Made by a program: the position numbers and the translations under genes. Of a stretch of 64,000 nt of DNA, positions 297 to 52,290 are shown piece by piece. The DNA comes from Verrucomicrobiia bacterium (GTDB lineage: Bacteria; Verrucomicrobiota; Verrucomicrobiia; Limisphaerales; JADLHS01): the NCBI GenBank assembly GCA_026125285.1, contig JAHCLO010000001.1:248001-312000 (forward strand), in the 5' to 3' direction. The notes under the pieces were generated by a model. It had not been told where the DNA came from. It worked only from the letters and a program-made list of their open reading frames with translations, and made no database searches. The stretch's first letter is position 1, and each line of letters begins with the position of its first letter.

Positions 297-1757
297 TCAC
301 TTGCCGATGCAGAACTGACTGAAGATCGAATCCAACAAGTCTTCGGTCGTGGTCTTGCCCACAATCTCGCCCACGGCATTGACCGCAATGCGCAGGTCCA
401 CCGCCACAAGTTCCAACGTGGCGCCTTCGCAAAAGCCAGACAAGGCGAGCGATACGGCGTTGCGTGTCCGCATCAAGGCGTTTTGGTGCCGCGAGTTGAT
501 CATTACTTCCAGCATCTCGGCGCGAACTTCACCTGACCAAACCAGTTCCTTGATGGCATCCTTGAGTTGCTCAATACCTAGACTCGTGAGGCAGCAGACG
601 TCAATCACTGCATGAGCAGCACGCGACTCAATCTCCGCTCCCCAACCGCCGTCCCCGGTTGCAGCAGTCCCCGGCGCGCACGGAGTGACGCGCCCTACTT
701 TGCGGTTCATGGAAGCCGGTAGAACCAGCTTAACCGGCAAGTCCACCTTGTTTCGCACCAGAATACGTTTCTTGCCGGCGAACTCGTCCAGATACTTTTC
801 ATCTGCCACCGTCAGCGGTTCGGAGGCATCAAGAACGTGGAGGATGAACTCGGCGGCAGCCAGACTCTGGTGACTGCGGCGGATACCTTCACTTTCAATC
901 TCGTCGCGCGCTTCGCGCAGCCCGGCGGTGTCCACAAACACCACTGGCAGTCCGCGCACATTGGCCATCTCCTCGATGGTGTCGCGCGTCGTGCCCGGCA
1001 CGGCCGAGACAATGGCGCGATCATGCCCGAGGAGTTGGTTCAACAAACTGGATTTGCCGGCGTTGGGCCGGCCCACAATGGCGGCACGGATACCACGGCG
1101 GAGGATCCTCCCTTCATTGGCGGTGCGCAGCAGTTCGTCCATGAAGGCCATCGCGTGCTCCAGCCGTTGCACCAGTTGGGCGTGCGTGTCCGGCGCGATG
1201 TCTTCCTCGGGGAAATCAATGTGCGCCTCGACATGCGCCAACACGTTCATCAAGTCGTCCCGCAGTTGATTGATCCGCCGGGAGAGTTTGCCCGCGAGTT
1301 GTTCGTTGGCGGCTCGCAGCGCCAGTTCGGTGCGCGAGTGAATCAAATCCGCCACCGCCTCGGCCTGGGTCAGGTCCAGCCGCCCATTGAGGAAGGCGCG
1401 GCGTGTAAATTCCCCCGGCAAAGCCAACCGGGCACCACTTGCGAGCACGGTGTCGAGCACGGCTTTGGCGGACAACAATCCGCCGTGGCAGGCGATTTCC
1501 ACCACATCCTCGCGCGTGTTGGTGCGTGGTGCGCGCATGACCGAGAGCAGCACTTCATCCACCTGCTGGCCCGCGCGCATCACCTTGCCGTAATGAATCG
1601 TATGCGTGGTGGCCTCGCTCGGTTTCCGGGAGTTCTTGCCCACCGGCAGGAAAACTTGCTCCGCCACCGCCAGTGTCTGCGGACCGGAAATGCGGATTAC
1701 GGCCAGCCCGCCTTCACCCAGCGGAGTCGCAATGGCGGCAATGGTATCGTCGAACAT
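297..1757 (-). CDS. mnmE: tRNA uridine-5-carboxymethylaminomethyl modification GTPase MnmE
   Basis: MnmE works with MnmG to modify the wobble uridine of certain tRNAs in the cytoplasm. The 486-residue protein has the tetrahydrofolate-binding N-terminal domain (residues 1-120), a helical domain, and an inserted G domain. The P-loop is GRPNAGKS at 229-236, DTAGLRE is at 276-282 and NKVD is at 336-339. The C-terminus is FCIGK, with the conserved catalytic cysteine. The protein is somewhat longer than usual because residues about 350-384, between NKVD and the following CCLTS segment, are encoded by a dispersed palindromic repeat that reads through in frame (KVGRVTPCAPG). This loop is at the surface of the GTPase fold, so the gene may still work. 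The small gene at 1820-2083 lies upstream on the same strand. Identification is very secure; activity with the insert is an inference. Confidence 0.97.
   Translation of the reverse strand: MFDDTIAAIATPLGEGGLAVIRISGPQTLAVAEQVFLPVGKNSRKPSEATTHTIHYGKVMRAGQQVDEVLLSVMRAPRTNTREDVVEIACHGGLLSAKAVLDTVLASGARLALPGEFTRRAFLNGRLDLTQAEAVADLIHSRTELALRAANEQLAGKLSRRINQLRDDLMNVLAHVEAHIDFPEEDIAPDTHAQLVQRLEHAMAFMDELLRTANEGRILRRGIRAAIVGRPNAGKSSLLNQLLGHDRAIVSAVPGTTRDTIEEMANVRGLPVVFVDTAGLREARDEIESEGIRRSHQSLAAAEFILHVLDASEPLTVADEKYLDEFAGKKRILVRNKVDLPVKLVLPASMNRKVGRVTPCAPGTAATGDGGWGAEIESRAAHAVIDVCCLTSLGIEQLKDAIKELVWSGEVRAEMLEVMINSRHQNALMRTRNAVSLALSGFCEGATLELVAVDLRIAVNAVGEIVGKTTTEDLLDSIFSQFCIGK
606..710. repeat. Dispersed palindromic repeat, family A (GRVTPCAP type), inside mnmE
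   Basis: The intact half-site at about 672-702 matches the right arm of the copies at 11966-12043, 37121-37199 and 52211-52290 (core GCGCGCACGGAGTGACGCGC). The left arm, about 618-660, is decayed but still aligns with the spacer and left arm of the 52 kb copy, including CGCGACTCA and CTCCCCAAC. The length is a multiple of three in effect, because the mnmE frame stays open across it. Confidence 0.8.
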
Positions 1758-1819
1758 GAGGCAAAGTCACCAATCCGGTGTTCCGGCCAGGAATGGTTGC
1801 GGGTTCATTTCCTTGGCAA

Positions 1820-6580: not shown

Positions 6581-9500
6581 ATGAACGGCCCACAAACACA
6601 ATCGCGCAAAACCAAACGCGAACTGTTCCTGGCGGCGCTCGAACGGCCAACACCCGAAGAGCGCGTTGCGTTTCTGGACGAGGCGTGTGCCCACGACCCG
6701 TCGCTGAGGGCGGCGGTTGAGGCATTGATTCAGAATCACAAGGAAGACACCTTTTTGGAGACGCCGGCCATCGTGGCTCCGGCCGGGGCTGCGCCCAAAG
6801 AGGGACGTTCCGACACAGTAACGGTGGTGATCATCGGCGAGAAGCCCGGCGATATGGTGGGGCGTTACAAACTGCTGCAACAGATCGGCGAGGGCGGTGC
6901 GGGCGTGGTGTTCATGGCCGAGCAGGAAGAACCCGTGCGGCGGCGGGTCGCCCTCAAGGTTCTGAGGCCAGGCATGGACACCAAATCCGTCATTGCGCGC
7001 TTCGAATCGGAGCGGCAGGCCCTGGCGTTGATGGACCATCCGAACATTGCCAAGGTGCTCGACGCGGGCAGCACGGCGACCGGACGGCCCTACTTCGTGA
7101 TGGAACTGGTGCGCGGCGTTCGCATCACGGAGTATTGCGACCAGCACCGCCTGCCAACCCGCGAACGGCTGGCCCTGTTCATCCAGGTTTGCCAGGCGAT
7201 CCAGCACGCGCACCAGAAGGGGATCATCCATCGCGACATCAAGCCGTCGAACATCCTGGTGACGCTCCACGACGGCGTGCCGGTGCCCAAGGTCATTGAC
7301 TTCGGCATCGCCAAGGCCGTGGATCAGCGGTTGACCGACAAGACGCTCTTCACAGAGTTCCAGTCGTTCATTGGCACTCCCGCCTACATCAGTCCCGAAC
7401 AGGCGGAGATGAGCGGGCTGGACATTGATACACGCTCGGACATCTACAGCCTGGGCGTGCTGCTCTACGAAATGCTCACCGGCAAGACGCCGTTTGACGC
7501 ACACGAACTCGTGTCGTCAGGTTTGGATGGCATGCGGCGCACGATTCGCGAGCGCGAACCGTCGCCACCCTCAACCCGCTTTCGCACATTGCCCGAAGCC
7601 GAACAGACCACGACGGCGCAACGTCAGCAAGCGGAGCCGGCCAGACTGACCAGCGTGCTGCGAGGCGATCTGGACTGGATCGTTTTGAAAGCCCTGGAAA
7701 AGGATCGCACGCGACGGTACGCGACGGCAAATGGCCTGGCCCAAGACATCCGCCGTTACCTCGAGAATGAACCGATCATCGCCCGTCCTCCCAGCGCAAC
7801 CTATCGTTTCCGGAAAATCGTTCGCCGAAACCAGCTTGCCTTTGCTGCGGCAGGTGCAGTTGCTGCGGCGCTCCTGATCGGTTCGGTGTTCTCGACCTGG
7901 CAGTTCATCGAGAAGAGCGCCGCCTACGGTCGGGCGGTCAACGCCGAGCAGGAGCAAACTCGGCTGCGGAACGAAGCCGAGGCAGCGCGGCGATCGGCGG
8001 AAGTCCAGGCCCTCGCGGCTCAACGCCAAGCCTATGCCGCGGACATGAATCTGGTGCAACAGGCGTTGGCGGCGAACAACCTGGGCCGCGCGCAAGAGTT
8101 GTTGAATCGCCACCGGCCCGCCGGGGAATCTCAATTCTCAAATTCCAAATCTCAAATCCCTGCGGACCTGCGCGGCTGGGAATGGCGTTACCTGTGGCAA
8201 CAATGCCAGAGCGACGCGCTGTTCACCTTGTGCCAGCTTTCCAACGAAGTTTCGGCTTTGAGCGTGTCGCACGATGGCAAATGGGTGGCCGTTGGCGAGG
8301 ATGGCGACCACGGGGCTTCGCTCTGGGACTTGCGCGCGCGCCAGGAGATCGCCCGGTTCCAAATTGGCGACGGGCAGTTCGCGTTCTCCCCGGTAAGCCC
8401 GGTGCTGGCATACGCCGCGAAGGGCAGTCCGGATCGTCGGGAGCCACCGGATCGCGGCAGCGTGCGGCTTTGGGACATGGTTAACCGCCGCGTTGTGGGA
8501 GAACTGCCGGTAAGTGGGCATTGCCGCGCTGTCGCGTTCTCCTCGGACGGCACGCGGCTGCTCACCGCCACTGACGAGTTCGCTGTCTGGAGCGTTGCGG
8601 ATGGAACCAAGCTGAGGAGTGCCGCTTTTCCCGAACCAAGGGGATTTGACGGGCGTGTCCCGGTGCTAAGTCGCGTGGTGGTTTCACACGATCTGAGTCT
8701 TGCGGCGCACGTTATTGGCGGTGGACGAATTCGCCTCGTGAACCTGATTTCAGGTCAGGAACTCTGGACGGCTCAAGCTGCGGATGAAAACGTCACATCC
8801 CTGGCGTTTTCACCTGATGGAAAGCAACTGGCGTCTGGCGCTGGCTTCGTGGAATCCGCAGTCCGACTGTGGGACGTGGCAACGGGCCGCGAGCTGGCGC
8901 GATTGGAAGGCCACCGCACTTACGTCCGGTCGCTGGTGTTCTGGCCGGACGGCGCGACGCTCGCTTCCGCCAGCGGCGACCAGACGATTCACTTGTGGGA
9001 TGTGAGCAGCGTGAGCCAGCTCTTCCCGACGAACCTTGGGTCATCCGAAAGCCCCCTCACCCGTCCTTCGGACACCCTCTCCGCCTCTGAGGGAGAGAGG
9101 GATGGGGTGAGGGGGCGGTTCTGGAGTGCAACCCGCCCGCGAGCGACTGAACTGCATCCCTACGCCACATTGCGCGGGCATCGTCTGGAAGTGTGGAGCC
9201 TCGCGCTGTGTCCCGATAACACCACGCTGGTGAGCGGCGCCAAGGATGGTTCCGTGCTCGTCTGGGACACTGCCGCTGTCCGCCGCAAACAGGCTTACGT
9301 GACTTTGCCAATGCCGGTGGTGGCCTGGAGCTTCCTGGCGGACAACCAGGAGATTTTGACGTTGGACAAGCAGGGCCGGGTCGCTCGCTGGCCGGGGGCT
9401 GATTTCCAGCACAGCCAACCGGTGCTGGACCTCGGCACGAATGCGCTGGCGGCCTGTTTCTCCGGTGATGGGCGGTATGTGGCCACGGTTTCATCGCGCG

Positions 9501-10204
9501 GAGCGAGCCAGGTCTGGGACCTGCAACAAGGCCGCATTTCGAGTGAGGTCGCCCCCGAAGAGGGGTGGGGGGTGCCAGTGACGTTTCTGGGAAACTCGAA
9601 TCACCTCGTCACCCAGCAAATGCGCGATGGCAGTTTTCGGGCATGGGACGTGACCACCGGACGCGAGACGATGCGCTGGCAGTTTGCCCCTCCGAGCTTG
9701 CCGAGGAGGAGAGCCGTTTCCTCAGACGGACAGTGGCTCGTTGCCGTGGACAATGAAGGCACGGGCGAGTTGTACGATCTGGCCACGGGCCGAAACCAGC
9801 AGTTTGACCTCCAGTTGAAACAGGTGAACGCCACCGCTCTTTCGCCGAACGGTCGGTTGCTGGCGGCAGTGAGCGTGCTCGGAATCGGCCAGGTGTGGGA
9901 CACCGCGACGGAACAAAACGTAGCCACCTTGCAGGGTTTTCTCCAAGGCACACACTCGGTCACTTTTTCGCCCGATGGCCAACGGCTCGCCATCGGCAGC
10001 AACGGGAATGAGGCCATCAAACTCTGGGACGTGGAAAGCCTCCAAGAATTACTCACGCTGAAAGGCCAGGGGTCCATGTTCAACTCGACGGCCTTCTCCC
10101 CTGACGGCCATGTTCTGGCCTCCATCAACAGCCAGGGCCTTCTGCATATCTGGCGCGCGCCGCCATTCGAGGACATCGCGCGACTCGAAGCGCCGGGGCG
10201 GTGA
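6581..10204 (+). CDS. Membrane-anchored Ser/Thr protein kinase with WD40 beta-propeller domains
   Basis: This is a 1207-residue signalling protein. A short N-terminal domain (1-60) is of the type seen in PVC kinases. It is followed by a complete kinase domain at about 95-395: glycine loop GEGGAGVV, VALK with Lys126, HRDIKPSN at 217-224, DFG at 240-242 and GTPAYISPEQ. One transmembrane helix at about 419-440 separates the cytoplasmic kinase from a WD40 region (about 545-1205) with many LWDV/VWDT repeat ends. Two dispersed repeats are translated in frame: an AT-rich one near residues 517-527 and a palindromic one near 824-845. Kinases like this often sit beside a TIGR02999-type ECF sigma factor. 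One is found at 11373-11939, but on the opposite strand. It probably phosphorylates targets in response to a signal sensed by the propeller. Confidence 0.93.
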   Translation: MNGPQTQSRKTKRELFLAALERPTPEERVAFLDEACAHDPSLRAAVEALIQNHKEDTFLETPAIVAPAGAAPKEGRSDTVTVVIIGEKPGDMVGRYKLLQQIGEGGAGVVFMAEQEEPVRRRVALKVLRPGMDTKSVIARFESERQALALMDHPNIAKVLDAGSTATGRPYFVMELVRGVRITEYCDQHRLPTRERLALFIQVCQAIQHAHQKGIIHRDIKPSNILVTLHDGVPVPKVIDFGIAKAVDQRLTDKTLFTEFQSFIGTPAYISPEQAEMSGLDIDTRSDIYSLGVLLYEMLTGKTPFDAHELVSSGLDGMRRTIREREPSPPSTRFRTLPEAEQTTTAQRQQAEPARLTSVLRGDLDWIVLKALEKDRTRRYATANGLAQDIRRYLENEPIIARPPSATYRFRKIVRRNQLAFAAAGAVAAALLIGSVFSTWQFIEKSAAYGRAVNAEQEQTRLRNEAEAARRSAEVQALAAQRQAYAADMNLVQQALAANNLGRAQELLNRHRPAGESQFSNSKSQIPADLRGWEWRYLWQQCQSDALFTLCQLSNEVSALSVSHDGKWVAVGEDGDHGASLWDLRARQEIARFQIGDGQFAFSPVSPVLAYAAKGSPDRREPPDRGSVRLWDMVNRRVVGELPVSGHCRAVAFSSDGTRLLTATDEFAVWSVADGTKLRSAAFPEPRGFDGRVPVLSRVVVSHDLSLAAHVIGGGRIRLVNLISGQELWTAQAADENVTSLAFSPDGKQLASGAGFVESAVRLWDVATGRELARLEGHRTYVRSLVFWPDGATLASASGDQTIHLWDVSSVSQLFPTNLGSSESPLTRPSDTLSASEGERDGVRGRFWSATRPRATELHPYATLRGHRLEVWSLALCPDNTTLVSGAKDGSVLVWDTAAVRRKQAYVTLPMPVVAWSFLADNQEILTLDKQGRVARWPGADFQHSQPVLDLGTNALAACFSGDGRYVATVSSRGASQVWDLQQGRISSEVAPEEGWGVPVTFLGNSNHLVTQQMRDGSFRAWDVTTGRETMRWQFAPPSLPRRRAVSSDGQWLVAVDNEGTGELYDLATGRNQQFDLQLKQVNATALSPNGRLLAAVSVLGIGQVWDTATEQNVATLQGFLQGTHSVTFSPDGQRLAIGSNGNEAIKLWDVESLQELLTLKGQGSMFNSTAFSPDGHVLASINSQGLLHIWRAPPFEDIARLEAPGR
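8131..8161. repeat. AT-rich dispersed repeat inside the WD40 kinase gene
   Basis: A short AT-rich tract of CAAATT/CCAAAT/CTCAAAT blocks in otherwise GC-rich coding sequence. It is translated as SQFSNSKSQIP. The 11-mer AAATCTCAAAT at 8149-8159 recurs at 40343-40353 in a similar AT-rich tract between two genes. Confidence 0.55.
9052..9115. repeat. Palindromic repeat inserted in frame in the WD40 region
   Basis: CCCCCTCACCC at 9052-9062 pairs with GGGTGAGGGGG at 9105-9115, and the inner parts (ACCCTCTCC and GGAGAGAGGG) also pair. The insert is read as a low-complexity loop, LTRPSDTLSASEGERDGVRG, between two propeller blades. It looks like a REP-type element, distinct from family A. Confidence 0.7.
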
Positions 10205-11965: not shown

Positions 11966-12043
11966 GGGTAGGGCGTGCAGTCCTCTGCGCGTCGTTTTCC
12001 TCAAAACAAGCATGGGCGCGCACGGAGTGACACGCCCTACCCC
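11966..12043. repeat. Dispersed palindromic repeat, family A
   Basis: An inverted repeat with outer arms GGGTAGGGCGTG and CACGCCCTACCC. Its right arm carries the family core GCGCGCACGGAGTGACAC; the left arm has several changes. It lies directly upstream of the ECF sigma start and upstream of the gene at 12113, in the divergent promoter region. Confidence 0.8.
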
Positions 12044-37120: not shown

Positions 37121-37199
37121 CTAGGGCGCGTCACTCCCTGCGCGCCGCAGTCTGCAACCGATGTTTCCGAACGGCGCGCACGGAGTGACGCGCTCCACC
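37121..37199. repeat. Dispersed palindromic repeat, family A
   Basis: An inverted repeat with arms 37121-37146 and 37173-37199 that match with a few exceptions (left arm TAGGGCGCGTCACTCC, right arm GGAGTGACGCGCTCCA). The spacer GCAGTCTGCAACCGATGTTT corresponds to the spacer of the 52 kb copy. It lies between the PhnP-like gene and the TIGR03790 gene. Confidence 0.85.
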
Positions 37200-40330: not shown

Positions 40331-40363
40331 ATTTCCAATTTGAAATCTCAAATTTGAAATTCC
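40331..40363. repeat. AT-rich palindromic repeat between the Lrp-type and aminotransferase genes
   Basis: A 33 bp AT-rich element made of CAATTTGAAAT and CAAATTTGAAAT blocks, self-complementary in part. It shares the 11-mer AAATCTCAAAT with the AT-rich tract inside the WD40 kinase gene. It ends seven bases before the aminotransferase ATG, so it could affect translation. Confidence 0.5.
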
Positions 40364-49929: not shown

Positions 49930-50574
49930 TTATCCAACCACAAGATCACCCCTCTTCCACACCACCCGCCTGCCTCGCACCACGATTGAACCGTGCGCCA
50001 GCGCCGCCACGCAGCGGGGATACAATTCATGTTCCGCCGCGTGAATCCGCGCGTGCAGCGTTTCCGGGGTATCGTCGTCCAGAACCGGCACAGTTTGCTG
50101 GCCGATGATGGGGCCGGAATCCACGCCGGCATCCACGAAATGCACCGTGCAACCGGTCACTTTCACGCCGTGATCGAAAGCCTGTTTCCAGGCTTCCAAT
50201 CCGGGGAAACACGGCAGCAGCGAGGGATGGATGTTCACGATGCGTCCCTCGAACGCGCGGAGGAAGTCGCCCTTCAAAACCCGCATGAACCCCGCGAGAA
50301 CGATCAGGTCAACCCTGGCTTCCTGCAATGCGCTCACGTAAGCGCGCTCCGCCTCCTCGTCCAGTTTGGTGCGAAATTTACCGGGGGCAATGTACCGCGC
50401 CATAAGCTGCCGTGCGCGGGCTTGCGCCAGAATTCCCGAGTCTTCCACATCGCTCAACACGATGGCGACTTCGGCCGGGACCACGCCCTGCGCGATCGCC
50501 TCCGCGAGGGCAACAAAGTTCGAGCCTTTGCCCGAGCCCAGCACGCCCAGGCGGAATGGTCTATCGCTATTCAT
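49930..50574 (-). CDS. purN: Phosphoribosylglycinamide formyltransferase PurN
   Basis: PurN transfers a formyl group from 10-formyltetrahydrofolate to glycinamide ribonucleotide, the third step of purine synthesis. The 214-residue protein has the N-terminal GVLGSGKGSNF phosphate-binding motif and VDLIVLAGFMRVLKGDFL. The catalytic Asn/His/Asp set appears in NIHPSLLPCFPG and HFVDAGVDSGPIIGQ. The formyltransferase signature region HFVDAGVDSGPI is intact. It is the complete copy; a nearly identical 3' segment lies at 42907-43177. An IS3 relic lies just downstream and a minisatellite upstream, so the gene sits in a rearranged area. Stand-alone, not in a purine operon. Confidence 0.96.
   Translation of the reverse strand: MNSDRPFRLGVLGSGKGSNFVALAEAIAQGVVPAEVAIVLSDVEDSGILAQARARQLMARYIAPGKFRTKLDEEAERAYVSALQEARVDLIVLAGFMRVLKGDFLRAFEGRIVNIHPSLLPCFPGLEAWKQAFDHGVKVTGCTVHFVDAGVDSGPIIGQQTVPVLDDDTPETLHARIHAAEHELYPRCVAALAHGSIVVRGRRVVWKRGDLVVG
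49959..50229. repeat. Direct duplication, copy 2 of the purN 3' segment (within intact purN)
   Basis: Partner of 42907-43177 in the same orientation. It covers the codons from HPSLLP to near the end of purN. The repeat pair brackets the giant protease gene and the IS3 relic. Confidence 0.9.
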
Positions 50575-50713
50575 GGGGTCTTCTTACAGGCTGCCCCGCC
50601 ATCGCCGCAAGCTTTCCATATTGAGCCCCTTCAAGCCAGCACGATGCTCGGCGCGTTGAATGGCCAGGTGGCGGGTGGAAGAATTACTTTTCCGCCGGCG
50701 CAGGAGCGAAAAC

Positions 50714-50951
50714 AAACACCAAACACCAAACACCAAACACCAAACACCAAACACCAAACACCAAACACCAAACACCAAACACCAAACACCAAAGGCCAAA
50801 GGCCGAACACCAAAGGCCGAACACCAAAGGCCGAACACCAAAGGCCGAACACCAAAGGCCGAACACCAAAGGCCGAACACCAAAGGCCGAACACCAAAGG
50901 CCGAGCACCAAAGGCCGAACACCAAAGGCCGAACACCAAAGGCCGAACACC
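50714..50951. repeat. Heptamer-based minisatellite
   Basis: 34 contiguous 7-mers: 11 copies of AAACACC (50714-50790), one AAAGGCC, then 11 copies of the 14-mer AAAGGCCGAACACC (50798-50951), one of which has GAGCACC instead of GAACACC. Because 7 is not a multiple of 3, each strand reads as a 7- or 14-residue repeat (TPNTKHQ, KAEHQRP) in all frames without stops, which creates several long false open frames. It lies about 115 bp before the next gene. Confidence 0.97.
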
Positions 50952-51064
50952 AACGCTCTGCATCCGGCCGCAGGGTGACGAATCTCAATCGGGCTGGCAG
51001 ATTTCCATTGCCAGCCGAAAAGCTCCCTTGTTAGCGTCGGGCCGATTTTCGTGAGGACACATAT

Positions 51065-52210: not shown

Positions 52211-52290
52211 GGGTGGGGCGCGTCACTCCGTGCGCGCCGCGACTCACACCTCGCTTCCCCAACGGCGCGCACGGAGTGACGCGCCCCACC
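52211..52290. repeat. Dispersed palindromic repeat, family A, best-preserved copy
   Basis: Two arms of 27 bp, 52212-52238 and 52264-52290, are perfect reverse complements, separated by a 25 bp spacer (GCGACTCACACCTCGCTTCC and onward). The arm core is GGCGCGTCACTCCGTGCGCG. It lies in the 391 bp gap (52115-52505) between the TIM-barrel gene and the membrane protein gene; I saw nothing else in that gap. Confidence 0.92.

Follow-up and report, generated by a model that had tools for sequence, protein, structure and literature searches.

Two repeats in the reading frame of a WD40 kinase

The window, a 64,000-nt stretch of a Verrucomicrobiia bacterium (Limisphaerales; JADLHS01; GCA_026125285.1, contig JAHCLO010000001.1), corresponds to G000:C1:248001-312000 of a host genome (G000) of 7.16 Mb in 79 contigs. 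On its plus strand, positions 6581-10204 form an open frame for a Ser/Thr protein kinase of 1207 aa with a C-terminal WD40 propeller. A Pfam profile search placed the kinase domain (Pkinase) at residues 96-323 and WD40/propeller matches from about residue 626 onward, giving a layout of kinase domain, linker and propeller. Matches to this kinase at E ≤ 0.001 were found in all 57 genomes searched, many of them paralogues, and its best named relatives belong mostly to metagenome-assembled Verrucomicrobia, including some labelled Pedosphaerales and Limisphaera. The initial annotation had described an AT-rich dispersed repeat and a palindrome within this gene, both in frame. We confirmed that a single open frame runs uninterrupted across both of them.

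The AT-rich repeat (8127-8158, plus strand) lies in the linker that connects the kinase/membrane part to the propeller and encodes SQFSNSKSQIP (about residues 516-526). It is dispersed and in frame, as had been proposed, but it is better described as a heptanucleotide array, (CAAATNN)n, which is one of many heptad units: Tandem Repeats Finder (TRF) reported a period of 7 with 76% matches and a score of 43. A 20-mer taken from the array and searched with at most two mismatches matched the host genome 7 times (own site counted) compared to none for the reversed pattern, while CAAATNNCAAATNNCAAAT with one mismatch gave 29 matches at 17 places (kinase site counted) against 0 for the control. At the same linker position, the sister genome (G001, with which locus L059 is treated as identical) carries a more regular copy, ISNFKSQIP (DSQISNFKSQIP), and L046 carries a segment of equal length, ESQIPQFTSESP, that looks like a decayed heptad copy.

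A motif search over 78 named loci recovered 48 such linkers, 36 of which were 6 aa long and 12 longer; the linker of the window measures 16 aa, a gain of 10 aa (+30 nt) that is no multiple of 21 nt. By reading, the longer linkers contain CAAATNN in L059 and L086, AGTGGCG and CACTCTC in L048, TTCAACG in L049 and GACCCTC in L065. The 11 linkers of scorable length showed z scores of 8.3 at lag 7 and 9.0 at lag 14 relative to codon shuffles, alone among lags 2-16. As this site is a hypervariable linker, one could suppose ordinary low-complexity linkers with no relation to repeats. We regard this as extremely unlikely, as the signal falls at lag 7, not at a multiple of 3, and dispersed copies of the same array also occur outside genes, so that the supposition is already contradicted for the arrays tested.

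The second repeat is a REP-like palindrome of 64 bp (9052-9115, plus strand) that encodes PLTRPSDTLSASEGERDGVRG (residues 824-845) within a loop flanked by propeller strands. Together with its surroundings (90 bases) it has a folding energy of -53.6 kcal/mol, as expected of a hairpin-forming imperfect palindrome, and a BLAST search against the host returned 37 rows at E ≤ 10 including itself; 11 of the others reach E < 0.001. The loop, measured between fixed motifs, is 69 aa long in the window and 68 aa in the sister genome compared to 55 aa in L046, L048 and L049. The net gain is therefore 14 aa (+42 nt) for the 64 bp that the initial annotation had correctly delimited, and part of the native loop was probably lost. 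An AlphaFold model of the kinase segment (17 sequences, mean pLDDT 80.8) assigned pLDDT values below 50 to model residues 296-331, a stretch that includes the palindrome (304-325 in model numbering) and is flanked by a strand ending at residue 287 (with a short helix at 289-293) and a strand starting at 336. The predicted position between propeller strands agrees with the earlier placement of the palindrome between propeller blades. For the heptad array, which sits at the extreme start of the modelled segment, the prediction is uninformative.

Orthologues of the same length and residues at the two sites would have pointed to ordinary protein sequence. Relatives are shorter at both places (6 aa in 36 of 48 linkers, 55 aa in the palindrome loop of three near relatives), which argues for insertion relative to these shorter kin. 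As both repeats are also present in the sister genome, they are inherited and not recent, and the palindrome predates the split of G000 and G001.

Palindrome copies elsewhere in the host were judged in context for 26 of 36 further rows; many have a short frame or none around them, while others are in frame within long frames containing NuoE/NuoF, Cas4, PAPS-reductase, Reg_prop or Eco57I-type domains, so that in-frame copies in several unrelated genes, as for intragenic REPs and Rickettsia palindromic elements (RPE), were found. The NuoE/NuoF frame holds two palindromes within one insert; the NuoF palindromes are present in G000 and G001 and absent from G036. In the PAPS-reductase-domain protein, presumably DndC-like, the segment with the palindrome is 22 aa long in G000 compared to 9 aa in G001 and G036, which thus represent empty sites. 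One Cas4 site carries the palindrome in G000 and heptads in G001, and in a kinase of G036 (L326) a palindrome and a heptad array lie side by side in one insert. By reading, the kinase palindrome has no terminal GTAG/CGTC tag, CGTC being internal only. No Y1 transposase was found beside it, and the 11 Y1_Tnp loci of the host (3.1-3.3 kb) hold no copy within approximately 1.5 kb when scanned for the palindrome core (one mismatch per arm) or the GGGGTGAGG tail. As a separate observation, the palindrome of L304 (G000:C27) falls in a cysteine stretch common to the relatives L344 and L346; the host copy of the PAPS-reductase-domain protein partly lacks those cysteines and may thus be damaged or inactive.

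A third dispersed repeat, GC-rich and assigned to families D4 (direct) and I1 (inverted), lies at 664-699 on the minus strand within mnmE (300-1766, minus strand; Pfam TrmE_N, MnmE_helical and MMR_HSR1), which encodes a tRNA modification GTPase. It is read there as ...VGRVTPCAPGTA... and had been counted as a third coding insertion, in line with our finding that GRVTPCAP, at about residue 356, falls in the MnmE helical domain and that at this point the protein is approximately 26 aa longer than the solved MnmE 3geh. GC-rich repeats of the GGCGCGTCACTCCGTGCGCGCC type occur in the window singly and as hairpin-forming pairs, at 664-699, 12006-12041, 37122-37199 and 52212-52290. Two further heptad arrays were located in the window. 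A second AT-rich, CAAATNN-type array at 40337-40361 (TRF period 7) lies near the end of a 253-aa minus-strand frame. At 50713-50953 on the plus strand, lag analysis and TRF identified about 240 bp of (CAAACAC)n followed by the 14-mer (CAAAGGC CGAACAC)n, which stays open in a 354-aa frame (49990-51051) in which a Pfam scan found no family.

Heptad arrays inside and outside genes

The exact pattern CAAATNNCAAATNNCAAAT had 110 matches in 20 of 57 genomes (host counted) compared to 3 for the reversed pattern, and was absent from the other 37. These matches merge into 83 arrays, which occur both inside genes and outside, as tandem 7-nt units at dispersed places in the manner of the known heptanucleotide class. 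A search of 288 genomes drawn from the phylum with a stricter pattern found CTCAAAT x3 with one mismatch in 14, host counted, a share that is not directly comparable to the former as both pattern and threshold differ.

Forward frames over 48 of the arrays were checked for homology, and 30 were supported, by Pfam in all cases except L256 (PDB alignment), L258 (kinase motifs) and L125 (88% identity to the window kinase). Nineteen of these arrays lie inside one domain, namely of a class-III aminotransferase, the LeuRS editing domain, HypF, the Sua5 C-terminal domain, a pseudouridine synthase, Lnt, aconitase (G021 and G000), HSP70/DnaK, two protein kinases, DapB (two genomes), a polysaccharide deacetylase, ThiC, MeaB, RibD, IF-2B/MtnA and a molybdopterin oxidoreductase. 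The other 11 lie between domains or in a linker: in the window kinase and its G001 orthologue, a U32 peptidase, a MiaB-like protein, two alpha-2-macroglobulins, a glycosyltransferase, a GH95 protein, a flavoprotein subunit, a radical-SAM protein and, on weaker grounds, an asparagine synthase. The 18 frames without support had no Pfam family or had the array outside the domains. As for the remaining 35 of the 83 arrays, 19 had no frame of at least 120 aa and 16 were not among the forward frames checked; overall, 30 of 83 arrays lie inside homology-supported proteins.

All 30 supported arrays are read forward (sign test, 2e-9), with the qualification that scanning began with the forward frame, which was in most cases the longest, and their codon phases are spread 12, 12 and 6. 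A Pfam scan of 10 of the 29 reverse frames of at least 120 aa found no array inside a domain; L238 has domains, with the array outside them. One-mismatch arrays of the host were forward in MetRS, two further kinases and Cas1, and reverse in one GH42-like protein. The initial annotation had suggested a search for both repeats in other coding regions and a test of in-frame bias; in-frame copies of both were found, and the bias that the heptads display there is one of orientation.

In reverse, a long array meets a stop if its unit is CAAATCT or CAAATTT, while CAAATCG and CAAATCC are open both ways. Among the 30 supported arrays, no reverse frame is open in 9, one in 8, two in 7 and all three in 6, so that stop codons explain part of the orientation bias. 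The six arrays open in all three reverse frames are nevertheless all read forward (p 0.03, two-sided sign test), which is suggestive that stops alone cannot account for the orientation. The CAAATCG unit reads RFAICDL in reverse, and the reverse peptides of the six fully open arrays are more hydrophobic, for which a filter at the protein level would be the natural reading. The same six arrays could also speak for selection of the peptide itself, heptapeptides such as QISNLKS being useful helices or linkers and the DNA repeat a by-product; that the DapB segment described below aligns with an equal-length native stretch would also fit. We consider this very unlikely, given that the periodicity is at the DNA level, with identical codons, three phases and arrays outside genes too, and that the unit, hence the peptide, differs between species at one site.

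Strand calls from the codon usage of the flanking sequence were tried and rejected, as the DapB array of G020 was called reverse while Pfam shows a forward gene. The codon-usage model also called five arrays forward but out of frame, one of which (L218) lies just before a Cas2 domain. In the cas region (L255, G000:C2:96500-102900, and L218, G001:C44), several heptads lie in and between genes of both sister genomes. At L194 (G021:C90:6800-11800), one open frame of 1275 aa has an ImuB-like part and a part resembling DNA polymerase III alpha, with a CAAATCG array between them that perhaps joins two genes.

Lag 7 was also surveyed in DNA that had not been chosen for heptads, counting exact lag-7 runs of at least 10. 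The host sample comprised 464 kb, made up of the window and 400 kb of one contig; units with fewer than three different letters were left out, and with them the CAAACAC array of the window. Here lag 7 was found at 9 places, all in the contig, compared to 0-6 for the other lags 4-13, the higher of which fell at the codon multiples 6 and 9; lag 14 was found at 6. In 328 kb of G021, the genome picked for the most CAAATNNCAAATNNCAAAT matches, lag 7 was again found at 9 places compared to 0-3 for other lags, and lag 14 at 3. Fourteen frames were located over these lag-7 runs and 8 of them scanned: five runs lie inside or between domains and three outside. The former affect, in the host, an ABC transporter ATPase (inside) and PheT (between) and, in G021, an AMP-binding enzyme and a PEMT-family protein (both inside) and HypF (between).

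Different units at shared protein sites

Several sites were compared across species. At the four sites scored for periodicity, the kinase linker and DapB among them, lags 7 and 14 were the top lags among 2-16 (z 6.6-8.5 and 4.2-9.0, respectively). The aconitase loop was matched in 24 of 31 loci: nine loops are 20 aa long, 12 are 12-13 aa and three are 17-19 aa. Arrays that are clear by reading have the unit TCTCAAA in G000 and G021, AAATCCG in G036 and TCTCAAC in G018. The remaining long loops are of irregular sequence, and some of the nine longest show no clear array. In the MetRS loop (seven sequences), a CAAATCT-type unit in G000 corresponds to CCTCAAC in G036, CCGCACT in G003 and a CCGAAAC-like unit in G025, with three sequences unclear. 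A kinase loop bounded by DAG and GRPYF was compared in 94 distinct sequences. It measures 4 aa in 85 of them and exactly 18 aa (+14 aa, +42 nt) in four, among which three unit types occur; the other five carry longer inserts, two of them with heptads. Some of the 94 were included for having heptads, so that these shares are no frequencies. The lag-7 signal was absent in 3 of 9 inserts of kinase loop A, and the inserts of interval D are not heptads.

The site in DapB has a constant length: the segment is 22 aa in 29 of 29 sequences, heptad or not. Regular heptads are present in G013 and G021 (CAAATCT) and in G020 (CAAATCG), with weaker periodicity in others, and lag 6 is raised as well (z 5.2) beside lag 7 (z 6.6) and lag 14 (z 7.3). 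Comparison with solved structures gave a similarly mixed picture, with no gap for LeuRS (1h3n), merely +3 aa for DnaK (2kho), +8 aa for aconitase, +16 aa for MtnA and about 41 extra residues between two aligned stretches of ThiC. Insertion explains the kinase sites, aconitase, MtnA and ThiC. In DapB and LeuRS codons changed at constant length, so that insertion is not the whole story and overwriting, or gain with compensating loss, would be needed. The description of the repeats as coding insertions therefore holds for the kinase sites and fails for certain other genes, in which heptads appear to replace native codons with no net insertion. A general insert quantum of 21 nt was considered, since both the kinase loop (+14 aa in four sequences, also +28 and +35) and the aconitase step from 13 to 20 aa agree with it. 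As a general rule it was dropped on account of the linker of the kinase (+10 aa), the loop with the palindrome (+14 aa for 64 bp) and kinase inserts of +22, +31 and +59.

That different units share sites could mean that arrays grew in place from a chance seed by local slippage, in 7-nt steps and with nothing dispersed. In one survey, heptanucleotides formed the most abundant category of long simple repeats in the majority of genomes, and slippage was proposed (Mrazek 2007, as summarised in passages of PMC4679880). This is a possible origin, to which we give somewhat less than even weight: slippage would lengthen DapB, whose length is constant, and many unrelated genes, as well as intergenic places, share an almost identical AT-rich unit. 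Alternatively, each site could have received one ancient insertion that was inherited and is decaying, the differences between units being mutational remnants. The first kinase site, of equal length in the host, the sister genome and L046 with graded decay, looks as this would predict, and the alpha-2-macroglobulins look similar. Point decay would hardly turn one regular unit into another (TCTCAAA, AAATCCG and TCTCAAC at one aconitase or kinase site) without loss of periodicity, and at the Cas4 site one sister has a palindrome where the other has heptads; we therefore regard a single ancient insertion per site as unlikely. The named records are nearly all metagenome-assembled genomes, which raises the matter of assembly or binning artefacts; with the same sites filled across different families of the order by sequences that are related but different, we regard an artefact as having next to no probability.

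Known repeats and a possible origin of the arrays

Rickettsia palindromic elements are palindromic repeats that lie in frame inside protein genes. They are mentioned in passages of PMC3733652 and PMC2635572, and the kinase palindrome resembles them in being in frame and differs in sequence and host; a further difference is that here a second, non-palindromic class of repeat, the heptads, behaves alike at the same or nearby sites. Passages of PMC3733652 describe GTAG/CGTC REPs as short dispersed palindromes found in frame in many unrelated proteins, with dimers encoding 20-30 aa, report that recB of two Xanthomonas species carries different REPs at nearly the same site, and include a verrucomicrobium among the organisms with intragenic palindromes. 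The kinase palindrome is similar to these intragenic REPs in its dispersal and in-frame position in unrelated genes, and differs from them in having no terminal GTAG/CGTC and no copy at the Y1-transposase loci of the host. Translated hairpins were thus already known, also in Verrucomicrobia, and the heptads are the surprise.

The cyanobacterial STRR are heptanucleotide repeats, and the arrays described here are similar in being dispersed tandem 7-nt units of variable copy number. Heptanucleotide repeats are reported from Xanthomonas and Nostoc (passages of PMC4692102) and from Beggiatoaceae (passages of PMC4679880). The latter source states that one orientation of a heptad array gives a single heptapeptide whereas the other meets a stop, and that heptads are mainly intergenic; the former finds them under-represented in coding regions. 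A survey summarised in PMC4679880 found intragenic tandem repeats to favour units that are multiples of three. The heptads of this clade differ from those described in that many are in frame in conserved proteins, with different units at shared sites across species, and the clade may be an exception to the intergenic, under-represented pattern. The searches made among open-licence papers found no description of in-frame heptads at shared sites in housekeeping proteins.

An arithmetic reason for such an exception may lie in the unit length. As 7 and 3 have no common factor, a heptad array encodes one cyclic seven-residue peptide in every frame of a strand; for the 15 units checked, the period-7 peptide was identical across frames up to rotation (QISNLKS for CAAATCT). 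Of all heptamers, about 69% are free of stops on a given strand and 50% on both strands, and together with the frame-neutral reading this makes heptads unusually easy to keep in genes.

Judged on sequence, both kinase repeats are in frame, dispersed and common to the sister genome, and heptads are in frame in many conserved proteins, in all phases and with different units at the same sites. We consider it probable that the kinase holds two unrelated kinds of dispersed DNA repeat which are predicted to be translated as extra or replaced segments where change is tolerated. Tandem arrays of seven-base units occur at many places in these Verrucomicrobiota genomes, and an insert preserves the reading frame whenever its number of units is a multiple of three (three, six, nine and so on). 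A new array in a gene would then be harmless more often than a random insert, provided that it is stop-free and falls in a surface loop, a linker or an exposed helix, while the palindrome would be a REP-like hairpin that is translated in the same way as intragenic REPs and RPE. Arrays would arise or move as DNA and then be filtered by selection on the protein; most likely the heptads begin as DNA repeats, and the survivors are the frame-keeping copies in tolerant places. Read in this way, the arrays offer a direct and testable way for essential enzymes to gain new protein segments from repeat DNA, and the repeated use of sites by different repeats maps protein tolerance, similar to a natural form of linker scanning.

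A bolder proposal, which we think quite unlikely, is that an active process writes seven-base repeats, for instance through a repair polymerase or a reverse transcriptase that advances in 7-nt steps. Its effect would be comparable to telomere-like repeats written into chromosome breaks. Such a process would both insert and overwrite codons, the latter at constant length as DapB and LeuRS suggest, and its frame-neutral product would steadily supply housekeeping proteins throughout the order with new, nearly pre-adapted heptapeptide segments.

In L276 (G024), positions 1058-1387 form a heptad array of approximately 330 bp composed of GCCTCAG and GTCTCAG units. In G029 (L234-L242), several CAAATTG arrays have similar flanks, unlike the short arrays elsewhere, as if they were part of a longer dispersed element.
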